Part shown: positions 1,030 through 9,147 of the stretch, in pieces
How the letters are laid out: each line of letters starts with the position of its first letter
How positions within the stretch are numbered: the first letter of the stretch is position 1
NCBI RefSeq assembly: GCF_030464365.1
Contig: NZ_VCYI01000014.1
Span: 1-64,000, forward strand
Direction of reading: 5' to 3'
From: Methanoculleus methanifontis
Lineage (GTDB): Archaea; Halobacteriota; Methanomicrobia; Methanomicrobiales; Methanoculleaceae
DNA length: 64,000 nt
The notes under the pieces: model-generated
What the model was told of the DNA's origin: nothing
Seen by the model: the letters and a program-made list of their open reading frames with translations, nothing else
Database searches by the model: none
Translations under genes and position numbers: made by a program

Positions 1030-3873
1030 ATGGACTTAACCGAATTACAGACGCGGAAGAGTAAAATCGACGTCTACCTTGCCGAGCAGGGCTGGGACGT
1101 CGCCAACCGCGCATCTGTCATTCCTGAAGTTGATACCAAACAGTCAGACTTTCTTGCACACTCTTATAAGACCGTCTCCGAGACGCTCAAGAACGATCTG
1201 GAGAGCAAGTACGTCGACTACCTCCTGCTTGACAGCCTGGGCGCTCCGCTCGCGATCGTCGAGGCCAAACGCACCTCAAAAGACCCGCTCATCGGACAGA
1301 AGCAGGCGGAGCAGTACGCCGACGATATCAAGCGGCAGACGGGGAGAGACGTCTTCATCTTCCTCTCCAACGGCTACGAAATCTGGTTCTGGGACCGGGA
1401 GCGCTATCCGCTCAGGCTGCTGAAGGGCTTCTATGCGCAGAAAGATCTGGAGCGACTCCGTTTCCAGATTCAGAAGATCGATCTCACCCGACCGATCGAG
1501 ATCAATACCCGCATTGTCGACCGTTCAAAGAGCATCGAGAACGTCAAGCGCGTGCTGGAGCATATCCGTAAAGGCCATCGTAAAGGGCTGATCGTCATGG
1601 CGACCGGGACCGGCAAGACCCGCGTGGCGATGGCGATCATCGACGCCCTCCTCAAGGAGAACCGTGCGCAGAAAGTGCTCTTTCTCGCCGACCGGAAAGC
1701 GCTCCGTGATCAGGCGTGGAATAAGGGCTTCCTGGAGTTCTTCCCCCATGAGGCCAAGGACAAGATCCTGCATGGTGTCTACAATAAAGAAAAACGGCTG
1801 TACGTCTCCACCATTCAGACATTTCAGGAGATATACACCCAGAAGGATGAGCGTGGGCAGTACCGCATCTCCCCCGGCGAGTTCGACCTGATCATCTCTG
1901 ATGAGGCGCACCGGAGCATCTACAACAAGTGGCGGGACGTCTTCACCTACCTGGACGCGATGCAGATCGGGCTGACGGCAACACCGGCGGAGCTGGTCGA
2001 TCGGGACACCTTCCGGTTCTTCCACTGCGACGACCACATGCCGACCGCGCTCTACTCGTATGATGAGGCGGTGAAGGATGGCGTCCTGGTCGACTTCCGC
2101 AAAAGCATCATCGGAGCGCAGACCCACTTCCAGATCGAGGGCCTTCGACCTTCCGACCTGACGGAGAGCGAGCGCAACCGGCTGATCGAGCAGGGGATCG
2201 ACCCGGATGAGATTAACTTCGAGGGCACAGAGCTGGAGAAGAAGGTCGCCGTCAAAGGGACGTCTGAGGCGATCGTGCGGGAGTTCATGGAGGGCTGCCA
2301 GATGGATCAGGCAGGGACGCTTCCGGCAAAGTCGATCTTCTTTGCCATCTCGAAGAAGCACGCTCGAAGGCTGCATGAGGCATTCGACGACCTGTATCCC
2401 GAGTACAAAGGACGGTTGGCGCGGATCATCGTCTCGGACGATCCCCGCGCCGAGGCCCTCATCCACGACTTCGAACACGAGTCCTTCCCTCGCGTGGCAA
2501 TCTCGGTCGATATGCTCGATACCGGCATCGACGTACCGGAGGTCTGCAACCTGGTTTTTGCGAAACCGGTCTTCTCAAAGATCAAGTTCTGGCAGATGTT
2601 GGGGCGCGGGACACGGTCGGATGGTGCGTGCAAACACCGGGAATGGCTGCCGGACGGGCATAAAGAGTATTTCAAGGTCTTCGACTTCTGGAATAACTTC
2701 GAGTACTGGAATATGAATCCCGAAGGGGTGAAGAATGAGCCGACCGAAGCCATCACGAGCCGGATCTTCTTCCTCCGGCTGAAGCAACTTGAGCGGCTCC
2801 TGGAGCAGGGCGACGACGAGCGGGCGGCGGTCGTCCGACAGAGGCTCGAAGAGGATATCCGCTCGCTTCCGATGGACTCTGTAACCGTCCGGGAGCACGA
2901 GCGGGAGATCGCGAAAGCCCTCTCCCCGAAACTCTGGGACAATGTCGGGCTTGACCCGCTGGAGTACCTGAAGAGCACAATCATGCCCCTGATGCGCTTC
3001 CAGACCGGCGTGAACCTCAAAGAGGCGTCCTTTACCGTCAAGGCGGAGCGGCTCGCGCTCGCGGTGCTGGAGGGCAACGAGAAGGAGATCGAGCGGTTGG
3101 CCCCGGAGATCGGGGAGATGGTCGATCACCTCCCCCGGACGCTCGATATCGTGAAGGAGAAGGAAGAGCGGCTGGACGAGGTGCTGACCCATGCCTTCTG
3201 GAAGGGTCTGTCGTTTGAGGACGCTACCGGGCTTGTCGGGGATATCGCTCCGCTCATGAAGTACATGTCGAAGGAGGCACACGAGCCGATCGTCATCGAC
3301 ATGGGAGATATCATCGCGCAGCGCACGCTCTGGACGCTCAACGAGGAAGCACCCGAGTATGTGACGGCATTCAGGGAGAAGGTCGAGAAGCGGGTTACAG
3401 AGCTGGCCGATCACAACCCGGTCATCCAGAAGATCCTCCACGACGACCCGATAACCGAAGCCGACCTTCACGATCTCGAAGAGGCGCTGGCGGAGGCCGG
3501 GGTGAACGTCACCGAAGAGATGTTGCAGACCTCGCCGCGTCACCCGTATGGCTCGCTCGTGGCGTTTATCCGGTCGCTCTTCGGTCTCTATGAAGCGCCT
3601 GATCCGAAGGAGAAGATAGCAGAGGCGTTTCAGACCTACATGATCGAGAATAACAAGAGTTATACCGCCGACCAGCTCCACTTCATCCGGACGATTCAGA
3701 CCGTTTTTATGCGTAAGAGGCGTATAGAAATGGACGATCTCTTCCTTGCTCCGTTCACGAATTTTGGGAGTACTGCACCGATGCCGATGTTCGATGAGGG
3801 CGATCTGAAGGCGTTTATCGGCATCTGTCGGGGGCTGGAGCGGGAGTTGTTTGCGGTGGAGGGTGAAGCTTAG
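1030..3873 (+). CDS. hsdR: Type I restriction enzyme, R (translocase/nuclease) subunit
   Basis: This is the motor and nuclease subunit of a type I restriction-modification complex; with HsdM and HsdS it translocates and cuts unmodified foreign DNA. The 947-residue protein has the N-terminal PD-(D/E)XK nuclease (Asp63 and the E78-A-K80 motif), then a superfamily 2 helicase with Walker A GTGKT at 193-197, DEAH at 291-294 and a following GLTATP motif III, then helicase domain 2 and a helical C-terminal region that binds the methylase core. Its stop TAG shares one base with the GTG start of hsdS, so the operon is translationally tight. Length and motif order look intact. Confidence 0.95.
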   Translation: MDLTELQTRKSKIDVYLAEQGWDVANRASVIPEVDTKQSDFLAHSYKTVSETLKNDLESKYVDYLLLDSLGAPLAIVEAKRTSKDPLIGQKQAEQYADDIKRQTGRDVFIFLSNGYEIWFWDRERYPLRLLKGFYAQKDLERLRFQIQKIDLTRPIEINTRIVDRSKSIENVKRVLEHIRKGHRKGLIVMATGTGKTRVAMAIIDALLKENRAQKVLFLADRKALRDQAWNKGFLEFFPHEAKDKILHGVYNKEKRLYVSTIQTFQEIYTQKDERGQYRISPGEFDLIISDEAHRSIYNKWRDVFTYLDAMQIGLTATPAELVDRDTFRFFHCDDHMPTALYSYDEAVKDGVLVDFRKSIIGAQTHFQIEGLRPSDLTESERNRLIEQGIDPDEINFEGTELEKKVAVKGTSEAIVREFMEGCQMDQAGTLPAKSIFFAISKKHARRLHEAFDDLYPEYKGRLARIIVSDDPRAEALIHDFEHESFPRVAISVDMLDTGIDVPEVCNLVFAKPVFSKIKFWQMLGRGTRSDGACKHREWLPDGHKEYFKVFDFWNNFEYWNMNPEGVKNEPTEAITSRIFFLRLKQLERLLEQGDDERAAVVRQRLEEDIRSLPMDSVTVREHEREIAKALSPKLWDNVGLDPLEYLKSTIMPLMRFQTGVNLKEASFTVKAERLALAVLEGNEKEIERLAPEIGEMVDHLPRTLDIVKEKEERLDEVLTHAFWKGLSFEDATGLVGDIAPLMKYMSKEAHEPIVIDMGDIIAQRTLWTLNEEAPEYVTAFREKVEKRVTELADHNPVIQKILHDDPITEADLHDLEEALAEAGVNVTEEMLQTSPRHPYGSLVAFIRSLFGLYEAPDPKEKIAEAFQTYMIENNKSYTADQLHFIRTIQTVFMRKRRIEMDDLFLAPFTNFGSTAPMPMFDEGDLKAFIGICRGLERELFAVEGEA

Positions 3874-5018
3874 TGAATACAAAGAGGCTGCCTGAGGGAT
3901 GGGAATGGCGGCAACTTGGCGATATAATTGAGTTAAAGTATGGTAAAGGGTTGAGAGAAGCAGAGAGAAATCAGGAGGGGGAAATCCCTGTTTACGGGTC
4001 AAATGGTCTCGTCGGACGGCATGACAAACCTATGTCAGATACTGCCGGGATTATTGTAGGGAGAAAAGGATCGGTCGGAGCAATTCACAAGTCGGATGGG
4101 CCTTTTTGGGCGATAGATACCACTTACTACATCGAGCCGATAGAGTGTCTTGATCTCTCCTACCTCTACTATTTACTAAAAACACTTAATTTGAGCTCAC
4201 TCGATAAATCTACCTCGATCCCAGGTTTAAATCGTAACGATGTGTATCGAAAAGTTATCCCAATACCTCCTCTCGACACCCAGCGCAAAATCGTCGCCAT
4301 TCTTGAGAAAGCAGAGGCAACGCAGCGCCTGCGGGCAGAGGCGGATGCGTTGATGCAAGACCTTTTACAGAGCGTTTTTCTGGAGATGTTTGGCGATCCG
4401 TCAATAAAATCGACGAATTGGCCTTATGAAAGGTTAGGAAACGTTATCGGCGTGACATCAGGGCATGGGTTTAAGCTTGAAGAGTACAGTGACGATGGAA
4501 TTCGACTATTAAGAATAAATAACGTGAGTTTTGGTGATATTATCTGGGAGCAGGTAGCTTACCTCCCCTTCGAGTATGGCGATAAATTCCCGCACTTGGT
4601 GTTAAAAAAAGATGACATATTAATGGCCTTAAATCGTCCGATTTTAGGGAATAAATTAAAAGTTGGAATGATGGATGAGGAAGACGCCCCTGCAATATTG
4701 TATCAAAGGGTTGGACGGATTGACATTTTGGATGAAGAGAGAGTAAACCGGCTGTATTTGTTTCACTTACTACGGACTCGGTACTTCTTGAGTGAATTAT
4801 CAGCAAGGCTTTCAGGGTCTGATCAGCCTTATATAAACCCTACGGCAATGGTCAAAATCAAGATCCCTCTCCCTCCGATTGCAATTCAAAAAAGGTTTGC
4901 ACAAATCGCTGCAAATATTCAACTCACTTATGATACTGGACAGAGTTCCAGAAACCAGCTACAGACTCTCTTTCAGGTGATTATCGATAGAGCATTTACA
5001 GGAGACCTGATACCATGA
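3873..5018 (+). CDS. hsdS: Type I restriction enzyme, specificity (S) subunit
   Basis: HsdS chooses the bipartite DNA target of the type I complex. The 381-residue protein has two target-recognition domains (about residues 5-135 and 190-340), each followed by a conserved helical spacer; the first spacer contains TQRKIVAILEKAEATQRLRA and the second IQKRFAQIAANIQ. The gene starts with GTG overlapping the hsdR stop and ends in an ATGA overlap with hsdM. Codon use in the recognition domains is more AT-rich than in hsdR and hsdM, as is common where specificity domains are exchanged. Gene order R-S-M is less usual than M-S-R. The target sequence cannot be read from the protein. Confidence 0.92.
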   Translation: MNTKRLPEGWEWRQLGDIIELKYGKGLREAERNQEGEIPVYGSNGLVGRHDKPMSDTAGIIVGRKGSVGAIHKSDGPFWAIDTTYYIEPIECLDLSYLYYLLKTLNLSSLDKSTSIPGLNRNDVYRKVIPIPPLDTQRKIVAILEKAEATQRLRAEADALMQDLLQSVFLEMFGDPSIKSTNWPYERLGNVIGVTSGHGFKLEEYSDDGIRLLRINNVSFGDIIWEQVAYLPFEYGDKFPHLVLKKDDILMALNRPILGNKLKVGMMDEEDAPAILYQRVGRIDILDEERVNRLYLFHLLRTRYFLSELSARLSGSDQPYINPTAMVKIKIPLPPIAIQKRFAQIAANIQLTYDTGQSSRNQLQTLFQVIIDRAFTGDLIP

Positions 5019-6532
5019 AACTCGCCCCTGACCTCAAATCAAAGATCGACACCCTCTGGGATCGGTTCTGGAGTGGTGGCATGTCAAACCCGCTCCAGTC
5101 CATCGAGCAGATGTCCTACCTCATCTTCATGAAGCGGCTGGAGGATATGGATGTCGTCGAGCAGAACCGGGCGCGAGCGCGGGGAGTGCTGTATACGTCA
5201 GTCTTCGAGGGGCATGAGGAGTGCCGGTGGTCGAGCTGGAAGCACTACCCTGCCGAGCAGATGCTGGAGCATGTCCGCGACAAGGTCTTCCCCTTCATCA
5301 AGTCCCTCCATAACGGTGAGAAGACCCTCTTCGCCCGACAGATGCGTGATGCCGTCTTCATGATCCCGAAACCGTCTCTCCTTCAGGAAGCGGTCGCTCT
5401 CATCGACGAGATGAATATTACGGCGCAGAACCGCGACACGCAGGGCGACATTTACGAATACCTGCTCTCTCAACTTTCCACCGCCGGGAAGAACGGGCAA
5501 TTCCGCACCCCGCGTCACATCATCCGGATGATCGTCGAACTGGTCGATCCTGACATCACCGACCGTATCTGCGATCCTGCGTGTGGTACGGCTGGCTTCC
5601 TCATCAACTCGTATGAGCATATCATCCGGAAGTATACGAGTCCTGACATGCTTGAGGTCGACCAGGAGGGAGAATACCATAACCTCATCGGCGACAACAT
5701 CACCGATCAGAAGCATTGGGAGAAGCTCTGGAGCGATACATTCTACGGATTCGACTTTGACTCGACGATGACCCGGATATCGCTCATGAACCTGATGCTG
5801 CACGGCATCAAAGCCCCTCACATCGAGCTCAAGGATACCCTCTCCAAGCGCTACAACGAAGAGGAGCGCTATACGGTCGTGCTCGCCAATCCTCCCTTCA
5901 AGGGGAGCATCGATAAGAGCGATATTAACGACAGCCTCTCGCTCGGCACGACGAAGACCGAGCTGCTCTTAGTCGAGCGGATGATACAGCTCCTGACGAT
6001 AGGTGGGAAGTGCGGCGTTATCGTGCCTGACGGCGTACTCTTCGGGAGCTCCAGGGCGCATAAGGAGCTTCGACGGATGCTCCTTGAGGAGAATCAACTG
6101 GAGGGTATCGTCTCTATGCCCTCCGGGATCTTCAAACCCTATGCGGGAGTCTCGACCGCCGTGCTGATCTTCGTGAAGGGCGGAAAAACCGGCAAGGTCT
6201 GGTTCTACGACATGGAGGCGGACGGTTACTCGCTCGACGACAAGCGGACATTCATCGACGGCAAAGGAGATATTCCGGACATTATCGAGCAATTCAGGCA
6301 GCGGAGAGACACAAACCCGATAGACAGGAAGGCGAAGTGCTTCTATGTGCCGGTCGAGGAGATCCAGGCGAATAACTATGACCTCTCGATCTCTCGCTAC
6401 AAGGAGATAGAATACGAAGAGGTCGAGTATGAGCCTCCGGAAGTTATCATCGGGAAAATCCAGGCGCTTGAGAGCCAGATTCAGCAAAATCTTGAGGAAT
6501 TGAAGAAGATGCTCAAAGAGACTGAAAAATAA
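5015..6532 (+). CDS. hsdM: Type I restriction enzyme, adenine methylase (M) subunit
   Basis: HsdM is the N6-adenine DNA methyltransferase of the type I system. In 505 residues it shows an N-terminal helical domain, the SAM-binding motif DPACGTAGF at 187-195 and the catalytic NPPF at 292-295, and a C-terminal helical tail that contacts HsdS. It starts in a 4-base ATGA overlap with the hsdS stop, so M and S should be made in linked amounts. All motifs are present, so the system should be able to modify its own genome. It is followed by a 150-base gap and a convergent gene. Confidence 0.95.
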   Translation: MKLAPDLKSKIDTLWDRFWSGGMSNPLQSIEQMSYLIFMKRLEDMDVVEQNRARARGVLYTSVFEGHEECRWSSWKHYPAEQMLEHVRDKVFPFIKSLHNGEKTLFARQMRDAVFMIPKPSLLQEAVALIDEMNITAQNRDTQGDIYEYLLSQLSTAGKNGQFRTPRHIIRMIVELVDPDITDRICDPACGTAGFLINSYEHIIRKYTSPDMLEVDQEGEYHNLIGDNITDQKHWEKLWSDTFYGFDFDSTMTRISLMNLMLHGIKAPHIELKDTLSKRYNEEERYTVVLANPPFKGSIDKSDINDSLSLGTTKTELLLVERMIQLLTIGGKCGVIVPDGVLFGSSRAHKELRRMLLEENQLEGIVSMPSGIFKPYAGVSTAVLIFVKGGKTGKVWFYDMEADGYSLDDKRTFIDGKGDIPDIIEQFRQRRDTNPIDRKAKCFYVPVEEIQANNYDLSISRYKEIEYEEVEYEPPEVIIGKIQALESQIQQNLEELKKMLKETEK

Positions 6533-6682: not shown

Positions 6683-7849
6683 TCAGGAATCTGATCCCTC
6701 TCTTTCAACGGAGATATCATCTTTTTTGGGAAATTGGGACAGCGTGGATTGATTCCTCATGGCATTCTTCTGGTAGTCCTCAAGCGCGAGTTTCTCTCCC
6801 TCCGCGCTGGCTTTCTCATCGACCCACCTATCAATAAATTTTGCATCGATATTCTCAAGAACAGCACGGAGTCTGGATCCCCGGCAGTTGAGCCGGATCG
6901 CATCGGCATCGACTTCATCGAATAGCTGATACTTCTGCCCGTATTCGAGGACAATTCGTAACTTCTCCGTCACCATCTGCTTCTTCTGATCTTCTGAAAC
7001 GCCCAGAGAGATGTTATTCATCAAGGTCGAGAGCACTGCGTTTTTCTGGATGATCTTCGGATCTTCGATACCATCTTCGAACAGGTTCTTTCGGTAGCAT
7101 TCCCCGACAATTGCCAGCTGGATGAGCCGGTAAGGGTTCGTCGAATAACAGTAAGGGAGTTCATACTGCTGATGGAGGTCCTGATCGCCGAAACCCGCCT
7201 GCAGCATCTCATTTAATGCCGAATTCTCATGCGAGCATTCGAGGAGAAGTTGTATCAGTTGAGACCGCGGGGCATAAACCCAGACTTTTATCAGGCCGAT
7301 ATCGTATTTGGGATGCGGCTTCTGACCCTGTGCCTTCATGGACTCGATGATCTTCATCTTGTCCTTCTCGTTGATGCAGAGCACGTACTCGAACCGGTTG
7401 GGATCCAGCTCGATGTCTATGGCATCCGAAAGGTAGTCCGTCTTTTCAAGGACCAGATCACGGGATAATCCGACCTCTTTTAACGTCTTTCTTACATCGG
7501 TGATCGAGGATTTGCACTCGACGAAGATCGCACGGTTTTCGCCTTCGTTGTAGAGGAAGAGATCGAAAGTGTGATTTCCCTTTTTTGCGGAGCCGAACTC
7601 GATCAGGGGCTCTGCAAAATAAAATTCGTATCCGGATCTCTGTGAAAGGTTGGTCTGTGCGAAAGATTTTACGCATTGTTTCACGAGAGTGTGGTGCTTT
7701 TTGTCTTCCTCAAGAGCATCACCGATTCGCTCTCGTGCCGAGGGTATAGAGTATGCTTTATATTTCTCTTTTAATTTATCCAATTCCTCGCGGACTTCAG
7801 GTGGAGAACGCTTGTAGAACGCCTGAAAGTCTTCCTTCTCACGAGGAAT
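6683..7849 (-). CDS. PD-(D/E)XK-superfamily nuclease-like protein, unknown family
   Basis: I do not recognise the family. Numbered from the TTG codon at 7783, residues 52-91 look like a restriction-type nuclease core: Glu58, then Asp74 in HTFDLFLYN, then E89-C-K91 in a beta strand (IFVECKSS). This is the E...D...ExK pattern of PD-(D/E)XK enzymes. The C-terminal half (about 150-340) is helical and may bind DNA or a partner. The reading frame is open back to the stop of the upstream gene but has no ATG, GTG or usable TTG there. A ribosome-binding site GGTGAT (7859-7864) sits 9 bases before an ATT codon (7847-7849), which I take as the start (388 residues); the alternative is TTG at 7783 (366 residues). 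It is coupled to the gene before it and lies beside a restriction operon, so a defence role is plausible. Confidence 0.6.
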   Translation of the reverse strand: MPREKEDFQAFYKRSPPEVREELDKLKEKYKAYSIPSARERIGDALEEDKKHHTLVKQCVKSFAQTNLSQRSGYEFYFAEPLIEFGSAKKGNHTFDLFLYNEGENRAIFVECKSSITDVRKTLKEVGLSRDLVLEKTDYLSDAIDIELDPNRFEYVLCINEKDKMKIIESMKAQGQKPHPKYDIGLIKVWVYAPRSQLIQLLLECSHENSALNEMLQAGFGDQDLHQQYELPYCYSTNPYRLIQLAIVGECYRKNLFEDGIEDPKIIQKNAVLSTLMNNISLGVSEDQKKQMVTEKLRIVLEYGQKYQLFDEVDADAIRLNCRGSRLRAVLENIDAKFIDRWVDEKASAEGEKLALEDYQKNAMRNQSTLSQFPKKDDISVEREGSDS

Positions 7850-7859
7850 ATGGATGATA

Positions 7860-8969
7860 TCACCCTACGGTCGCCATATGATCGATATTCTCGACCACAA
7901 ACTCGAAAAACCTCATGGATGTTCCGATGTCTATTTTCTCTACCGGGTAGACGTCGATCTTCTTGCCGGTAGTCGAGATGTCCAGGAGAGAACCCGTGTG
8001 CTCATCGATCAACCGGGCGGAGAAGAACATTGAACCCGGCAGCAGCACCTGTTCCAGTACAGTGAAGTTCCACTCCTCGCTGCGCACCGCCTTGCAGAAG
8101 CGGGAAACGTCATCGTAGTGCATCTCCACCGGCACATCAATTGACCAGGGGATCTGAATGGCATTCGAGAATTGCCTGCGGGACCCGACCTTGCTGATGG
8201 AATATCCCGACTCTCCGATTGCCTCTCTTACGTTTTCAAGCCGTGAAACGACGTCCTCAATTATCTTGAAGATGCCGGCGAAGTGTCCGTGACGCAGTGT
8301 TATGATTCCCTTATTGTCGATGCGAAATGCGATGCCGTTCGGGAGCTGGACCTCAAGAATCTTTGGTAGCACACCGTAGTAGAATTCCATCTCCTCAAGC
8401 GTGTGTTTTCCGTCGTTCCCCCTGTATTGGATGCCTCTCTCGACATGGGGCCGGAACTCGGAGTGAATATCAGTGTTGGGGCTCCTCTTCGCAGAGAAAT
8501 AGGTTATGATCATGTCCGGGTGCTCCCGGACGAGGTTATCTTTGATCTCCTTCATCACCTTAGGGGCAATCCAGAGATTCGATATCTCCTTTGTACGGTT
8601 GATGTAAGTGAAGAGGATGTCAGGTATCTCATTGGTTTTCTTTGCATCCGTGATGAAGAGCGGGACATTGTTCCTGTCGTCGAAGAACGTATAAATATAA
8701 ATCCGTTTACCCTGGGATTCCTTCGAGAGGAGGAGCAGTTTTCCTGCCCTCTTATCGATGGAGAAATGGAAGTTTTTGAGGGTCTCGACGAACTGGTTGA
8801 TGTTCTGGAACATCGACAGCGTTGCAACTATGTGGAGATTACTGTTGATCTGGTCGTCTCCTCGCTCACATTCAAGGTACTGGATCAGCTCCTGAATGTC
8901 GTCGAAGTCTCTATCAGCTCTGATGAGCGAAGGGAGGTTCAAAGTATCACATCCCCGGTTAATTTCCAT
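7860..8969 (-). CDS. Unknown protein, first gene of a nuclease cassette
   Basis: I do not recognise this 369-residue soluble protein. It has no membrane segment or signal peptide. A region near 110-160 (SNLWIAPKVMKEIKDNLVRE followed by MIITYFSAKR) alternates helix and strand, and a second mixed alpha/beta half follows from about 180. It starts at ATG 8967-8969 and its TGA (7860-7862) overlaps the ribosome-binding site of the downstream nuclease-like gene, so the two are expressed as a unit. Its position at the edge of an island, next to a type I restriction system and a tRNA, suggests a sensor or specificity partner for the nuclease; that is inference from context only. Confidence 0.55.
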   Translation of the reverse strand: MEINRGCDTLNLPSLIRADRDFDDIQELIQYLECERGDDQINSNLHIVATLSMFQNINQFVETLKNFHFSIDKRAGKLLLLSKESQGKRIYIYTFFDDRNNVPLFITDAKKTNEIPDILFTYINRTKEISNLWIAPKVMKEIKDNLVREHPDMIITYFSAKRSPNTDIHSEFRPHVERGIQYRGNDGKHTLEEMEFYYGVLPKILEVQLPNGIAFRIDNKGIITLRHGHFAGIFKIIEDVVSRLENVREAIGESGYSISKVGSRRQFSNAIQIPWSIDVPVEMHYDDVSRFCKAVRSEEWNFTVLEQVLLPGSMFFSARLIDEHTGSLLDISTTGKKIDVYPVEKIDIGTSMRFFEFVVENIDHMATVG

Positions 8970-9075
8970 TAAGTTTCATGTAGATTTAGATGTTTCTTAT
9001 TTGAACCTGATGATATAGGCGGAACATGAAGGTATCTTGAGGATTGCCATATATCAAGTCAATCTGAAAATAAGA

Positions 9076-9147
9076 TGGACCGAGCGGGAATTGAACCCGC
9101 GGCCTCTACCATGCCAAGGTAGCGATCTCCCCCTGATCTATCGGCCC
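9076..9147 (-). tRNA. tRNA-Ala (GGC)
   Basis: Read on the minus strand the gene begins with acceptor strand GGGCCGA and ends with TCGGTCC plus discriminator A at 9076. The anticodon arm is CTACC-TTGGCAT-GGTAG, giving anticodon GGC (alanine), and the T loop is GGTTCAATTCC. CCA is not encoded. The 3' end faces the accessory block at 1-9070, the usual geometry for island integration at a tRNA gene. Confidence 0.95.

Follow-up and report, generated by a model that had tools for sequence, protein, structure and literature searches.

Two adjacent genes of the methane-producing archaeon Methanoculleus methanifontis, here called A and B, probably form a previously undescribed antiviral system, since they make up an inseparable and mobile pair that turns up repeatedly near antiviral genes and within haloarchaeal viruses. 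They lie on a contig segment of 64,000 nucleotides (hereafter the window), and their features are collected in Table 1. Our full reading, to which we give a probability of roughly 0.6, is that A and B are an obligate anti-virus or anti-plasmid module of Halobacteriota in which A would recognise the invader and B would cut, a membrane effector serving in two lineages. About 15% of the sampled haloarchaeal genomes have the pair, which falls outside the defence library that we used. Apart from CRISPR and restriction, little is known of the antiviral systems of archaea (PMC12988326).

Table 1. Positions in the window of the A–B pair, its predicted domains and its neighbours.
Feature	Position	Strand	Description
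Gene A	7860-8969	minus	369 aa, ATG start, ORF
A residues 262-369	7863-8186	minus	predicted TBP-like/appendage-like alpha-beta domain (AlphaFold2)
A residues 173-187	8409-8453	minus	RPHVERGIQYRGNDG; most conserved motif of family A
Junction	7849-7864	minus	SD-like GGTGAT over the TGA of A; candidate ATC start at 7855-7853, or +1 frameshift at GGG TGA
Gene B	6683 to ~7861	minus	predicted PD-(D/E)XK and winged-helix protein; frame open from the stop of A
B residues 54-222	7196-7702	minus	predicted PD-(D/E)XK nuclease domain (AlphaFold2 model)
B predicted catalytic residues	7511-7612	minus	E84 7612-7610, D100 7564-7562, E115 7519-7517, K117 7513-7511
B residues 240-345	6827-7144	minus	predicted winged-helix domain (AlphaFold2 model)
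hsdR-hsdS-hsdM, type I RM	1030-6532	plus	convergent neighbour, context and not part of the pair; PADLOC models
HsdR	1030-3873	plus	
HsdS	3873-5018	plus	
HsdM	5015-6532	plus	
tRNA-Ala(GGC)	9076-9147	minus	attachment site of a variable island in Methanoculleus

The two genes and their junction

Both reading frames are present as an earlier sequence-only reading of this DNA had given them, A with 369 residues and B, if read from a TTG, with 366 (6683-7783, minus strand), and the flanks are also as it described, a complete HsdRSM system by PADLOC models on one side and tRNA-Ala(ggc) on the other. The overlap that it noted between the end of A and a ribosome-binding site is real as well, the TGA of A overlapping an SD-like GGTGAT (7864-7859, minus strand). 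Its start for B had to be rejected. The frame is open back to the stop of A, with no ATG, GTG or TTG before 7783; relatives in Methanoculleus and Methanofollis conserve the protein sequence encoded upstream of TTG 7783, and this part aligns with the N-termini of those relatives in which a GTG or ATG start lies there; and the TTG is replaced by CTG in one close relative and by CTA in Methanofollis. TTG 7783 is thus probably not the start. The third codon of B is ATC or ATA in the Methanoculleus, Methanofollis and Methanothrix relatives, where it follows GGTGA with no ATG, GTG or TTG nearby. Since no such codon is available, B would begin either at a non-canonical ATC or ATA after GGTGAT, or by +1 frameshifting at GGG-TGA, which would yield an A–B fusion of about 760 residues.

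Two observations concern the neighbouring DNA. A 224-residue multi-helix protein of membrane type is encoded at 141-815, upstream of hsdR and close to the contig end. The window's hsdS (3873-5018) is almost unalignable with the copies in two Methanoculleus genomes (G126 and G711), with matches of only 92-144 bp, and the hsdR and hsdM on either side share 92-95% DNA identity with their counterparts there, which looks like a switch of restriction specificity.

Gene B encodes a predicted nuclease

Neither protein has a meaningful match in sequence searches of Pfam, NCBIfam or PDB, the 17-member family built around B matches no Pfam family, XisH included, and the two proteins match 0 families among the PADLOC 2.0 component models at E up to 1. 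Within these libraries the earlier description of the pair as undescribed is therefore supported. Among viral protein families (PHROGs), A matches phrog_24372 with an E of 1.8e-65, and the B protein of the Haloarcula provirus Harhisp1, described below, is phrog_35712, both families being of unknown function.

Structure prediction for B, which the sequence-only reading had named as a place where its nuclease claim could fail, gave a PD-(D/E)XK fold. The AlphaFold2 model (mean pLDDT 81, pTM 0.73, core strands mostly at pLDDT 76-92) consists of a long N-terminal helix, the nuclease core and a winged helix, in that order. The best structural matches of the nuclease domain are Upx (Z 10.0), AF2093 (9.6) and XisH (8.7), followed by BsmI (8.4), Can2 (8.2) and PaqCI (8.1), and the top matches, at Z 8-10, are nearly all PD-(D/E)XK enzymes; the archaeal repair endonuclease 2vld follows at Z 7.7. 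At the core strands, the acidic D and the (D/E)-x-K of the superfamily are found in the window's B as D100 and E115-C-K117. The residues previously pointed out as E58, D74, E89 and K91 are indeed present, and are E84, D100, E115 and K117 in the 392-residue reading of B (P0001). By modelled fold and core residues together, then, B is a predicted member of the PD-(D/E)XK superfamily. The winged helix matches those of JetB, MukE, Orc, E2F-DP and DpnI at Z of about 7.

Gene A encodes a possible binding partner

The AlphaFold2 model of A is less certain than that of B (mean pLDDT 72, pTM 0.73). Its C-terminal domain matches CENP-N, TBP and RnlA at Z 6-7.7, with the COR domain of Roco (Z 9.2) and the beta-adaptin appendage (Z 8.5) as the top matches, and for the N-terminal two thirds the matches are RdgC, CENP-L and Iml3 (Z 7-7.8), a level reachable by a common arrangement. 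Similarity to TBP, CENP-N/L, Iml3, RdgC and RnlA lies at Z 6-8, and other folds score equally. No TBP or RdgC family is matched by A in Pfam or NCBIfam; a viral library also returns phage RdgC and viral TBP proteins. Similarity of Chl4/Iml3 to both RdgC and TBP has been published (PMC4080450). A TBP/RdgC-like fold is thus weakly suggested for A, Z values of 7-9 being common for chance arrangements. Foldseek matches of A to KICSTOR were set aside (TM about 0.1), and in the sequence searches with A and B a match to IpaD at E 0.098 was taken as chance.

The most conserved part of A is a motif in which, across 17 diverse members, R178, Y182 and D186 are invariant and R173 and P174 nearly so, with conservation continuing past it at Y198-G199. 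In the model this whole stretch occupies a loop and a helix, the loop part being of low confidence (pLDDT below 50 at residues 162-185).

Distribution of the pair

B comes next after A, in the same orientation, in 80/80 fetched loci (72 distinct A sequences, all from Halobacteriota), which argues that the pairing is more than chance. The genes overlap or lie a few bases apart, and in loci of the Methanoculleus type they abut once the upstream frame of B is counted; the single exception is one frameshifted copy (L090). When 295 genomes were searched with a B profile, every full-length B came from a genome in which A is present too, the remainder being decayed fragments and weak matches. One haloarchaeal genome with no detected A, for instance, has B fragments with stop codons (G119:C19:7785-9936).

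The distribution is patchy. A was found in 18/393 Halobacteriota genomes, one of these being a chance match (L046 in G382), and in 57/391 haloarchaeal genomes by profile search, and the pair is present in 5/35 Methanoculleus genomes, every copy at the same tRNA-Ala/NaPRT site. Identity to the window copy ranges from about 20 to 98% for A and from 13 to 96% for B. A scan of genome contigs, restricted to close patterns, returned eight loci, and plasmid and phage collections, which are mostly bacterial, gave haloarchaeal matches only. Restriction of the pair to archaea is provisional, since bacterial sequences were covered only through these plasmid and phage collections. Strict scans of viral contigs found no pair, and say little given that Harhisp1 carries it.

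This patchiness bears on one alternative, that an RdgC-like A and a NucS/Bax1-like nuclease B form a DNA-repair or recombination pair. The matches of A to RdgC and Iml3/CENP-L (Z 7-7.8), the RdgC proteins of phages that the viral library returned and the matches of B to NucS/EndoMS and Bax1 would all suit it. We nevertheless consider it improbable, as the distribution is that of an accessory (5/35 and 57/391), the context is one of mobile elements and defence genes, and the active site of B has been lost repeatedly.

Defence genes and mobile elements around the pair

In Methanoculleus genomes that lack the pair, similarity to the window ends at the 3' end of the tRNA-Ala. The next core gene follows some 200-240 bases after the tRNA in genomes G267 and G362, and 19.5 kb of variable DNA lies there in G126. 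A partial tRNA repeat is found at a distance in three relatives with other cargo (L161, L165, L168); a second att copy was not found within about 60 kb in G126. The tRNA hotspot is a Methanoculleus feature, and a general association with tRNAs was dropped, tRNAs being not clearly commoner near the haloarchaeal copies than in controls. The tRNA-Ala(GGC) beside NaPRT (9069-9147; also L161, L162, L165, L168, L169) is itself an integration hotspot of the genus: some species have nothing inserted there, and others have different cargo, of 12-20 kb.

The hsdRM neighbours are common to the window, G126 and G711, and this shared island might suggest that A and B are accessory subunits of the type I system. 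We regard this as very unlikely: the pair and the hsd genes are convergent and form no single operon, neither A nor B has sequence kinship to Hsd subunits, and most homologues have no type I system nearby. A further genome (G710) has the pair at the tRNA-Ala with other DNA downstream of it, so a link to type I restriction is not obligatory.

What the neighbourhoods do share is their general character. Proteins encoded within 5 kb of the pair (83) matched 215 PADLOC models, compared to 19 for 83 control proteins from arbitrary regions of the same size in the same haloarchaeal genomes. Foremost among the matches were mads_2, DrmMI and type IIG restriction enzymes, with PglX also present; there were no restriction enzymes among the 83 control proteins. 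DISARM-type genes are among the neighbours, as are McrBC, Eco57I, Mrr, UvrD and phage integrases. The defence-type context that had been proposed from the window thus extends to the homologues, which lie in restriction and defence neighbourhoods, on plasmids and in proviruses, and were not seen in housekeeping contexts. It counts against a defence reading that mobile elements carry many non-defence genes.

Mobile elements themselves carry the pair in several cases. Haloarchaeal copies are found on plasmids, and the provirus Harhisp1 of Haloarcula hispanica, a pleolipovirus (MW344767), carries the pair as HarHp1_105/100. It is an active provirus whose excision and integration at tRNA-Ala have been described (PMC7911831). 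A similar picture emerges for one genome (G617), where a pleolipovirus-like element holding the pair is present four times with 99.9% identity (L087-L090), two of the copies being in the main contig and the others on contigs of 17-20 kb, and for four other loci in which a spike or NTPase gene of pleolipoviruses accompanies the pair (L116, L127, L136, L139).

It is conceivable, if rather unlikely, that the pair serves these elements in excision, integration or replication control, in the manner of the cyanobacterial XisH/XisI, and that the defence genes are co-travellers in the islands. In its favour are the closeness of the XisH fold to that of B (Z 8.7, among the best), the tyrosine integrases near 12 loci, and the presence of the pair in pleolipoviruses and on plasmids. 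An integrase is absent from the surroundings of most loci, though, the window pair stands beside a type I system and not replication genes, and a catalytic site that is dispensable in whole clades would be odd for an excision enzyme.

Loss of the active site and membrane-protein genes

The E-x-K of B is kept in 39/72 distinct loci and lost in 33/72. At 20 non-redundant site-less loci a gene for a protein of 163-222 residues, usually with one predicted membrane helix, lies 34-135 bp upstream of the pair on the same strand. Nine site-less loci have a pentapeptide-repeat gene, which in eight is divergently adjacent and encodes two C-terminal membrane helices; the ninth is Harhisp1, which holds the gene of the former kind too. 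Across the two main site-less lineages the membrane-protein genes are 34-250 bp away, and neither kind is found in the intact-site loci (0/39). The divergent pentapeptide-repeat proteins (L045, L048, L126, L127, L130, L132-L134) are 486-511 residues long, and with their C-terminal helices they are possibly a family of membrane effectors.

In a phylogeny of A (IQ-TREE, mixture model) the two membrane-gene groups are widely separated, and the test of topology rejects a single origin for them (p-AU 3e-53). The catalytic site changes state at least five times on this tree, and the active site of B has decayed independently in at least two lineages. An accessory membrane gene accompanies two of the losses, and three others (L125, L031 and L135-137) have neither kind, L125 being sister to the pentapeptide group. 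These independent contrasts are too few to make the association between loss and membrane gene significant. We read the loss of the site beside a membrane gene as replacement of the effector. It could also be that catalysis by B matters little and that the membrane genes have unrelated roles.

Repeated loss also bears on the idea that the pair is a toxin–antitoxin system, with B a toxic nuclease and A its neutraliser. Overlapping genes, obligate adjacency, a distribution among mobile elements and the weak similarity of the C-terminal domain of A to the TBP-like part of RnlA are all in keeping with this. We think it unlikely, given that both proteins are large, that the site of B was lost repeatedly with both genes kept, which is unexpected if toxicity were the sole use, and that two lineages have an additional membrane gene.

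Proposed mechanism

Returning to the antiviral reading, we infer a role in which A acts as the sensor, DNA is the substrate and the effector can be exchanged. A, probably a TBP/RdgC-like partner that binds nucleic acid or protein, would recognise the invader, its replication product or some sign of infection, and would license or direct B to cut DNA, the winged helix of B binding the DNA and the PD-(D/E)XK domain cutting it. In two haloarchaeal lineages the damage step may have moved to a membrane protein, with A and the B scaffold keeping the sensing, since the site of B has decayed there while the pair persists beside a membrane gene. The earlier reading of the pair is on the whole supported, but one protein sensing and the other cutting would be the arrangement only of the window and the other intact-site members, since the nuclease site has been lost in several haloarchaeal clades.

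More tentatively, the pair may belong to a family of archaeal defence systems that pleolipoviruses and islands have spread, and that join a single sensor pair, composed of a TBP/RdgC-like and a winged-helix PD-(D/E)XK protein, to interchangeable outputs. These would be its own nuclease, as in the window, or a single-pass or pentapeptide-repeat membrane protein where the nuclease is a pseudo-enzyme. Repeated decay of a nuclease beside a membrane gene offers a natural experiment on the exchange of defence effectors, and the role of the pair can be tested now, since an active and inducible provirus of Haloarcula hispanica, a haloarchaeon kept in the laboratory, carries it.

Comparison with known systems

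The best structural match of the B nuclease domain, Upx (PDB 9wuf; Z 10.0 over 127 residues, rmsd 3.2), is an antiphage protein. Its chain has 1,212 residues, compared to about 390 for B, which has its own winged helix, an obligate partner and no PADLOC match. XisH, the fdxN element excision controlling factor, has a similar nuclease core (Z 8.7) but is only about 130 residues long with no winged helix, and B does not match the XisH family of Pfam. The type IIS enzymes BsmI and PaqCI and the CRISPR-ancillary Can2 also share the PD-(D/E)XK core (Z 8.1-8.4); unlike these, B shows no CARF or specificity domain and has A as obligate partner. Parts of A weakly match the RdgC, CENP-L-Iml3 and TBP group and the TBP-like domains of RnlA (Z 6-8), though A has no sequence similarity to this group and partners a nuclease.

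The pair HarHp1_105/100 of Harhisp1 is directly homologous, and differs from that of the window in being annotated as hypothetical, in having lost the active site of B and in having a membrane gene (HarHp1_110) upstream. CBASS, Avs and the type III CRISPR ancillaries combine a constant sensor with nuclease or membrane effectors, and the likeness of A and B to them is an analogy of architecture only, with no shared proteins. No description of the pair was found in the freely accessible papers searched. A nuclease with a partner among defence genes is a known kind of module; what is new here is the partner A, the archaeal family and the change from nuclease to membrane protein.
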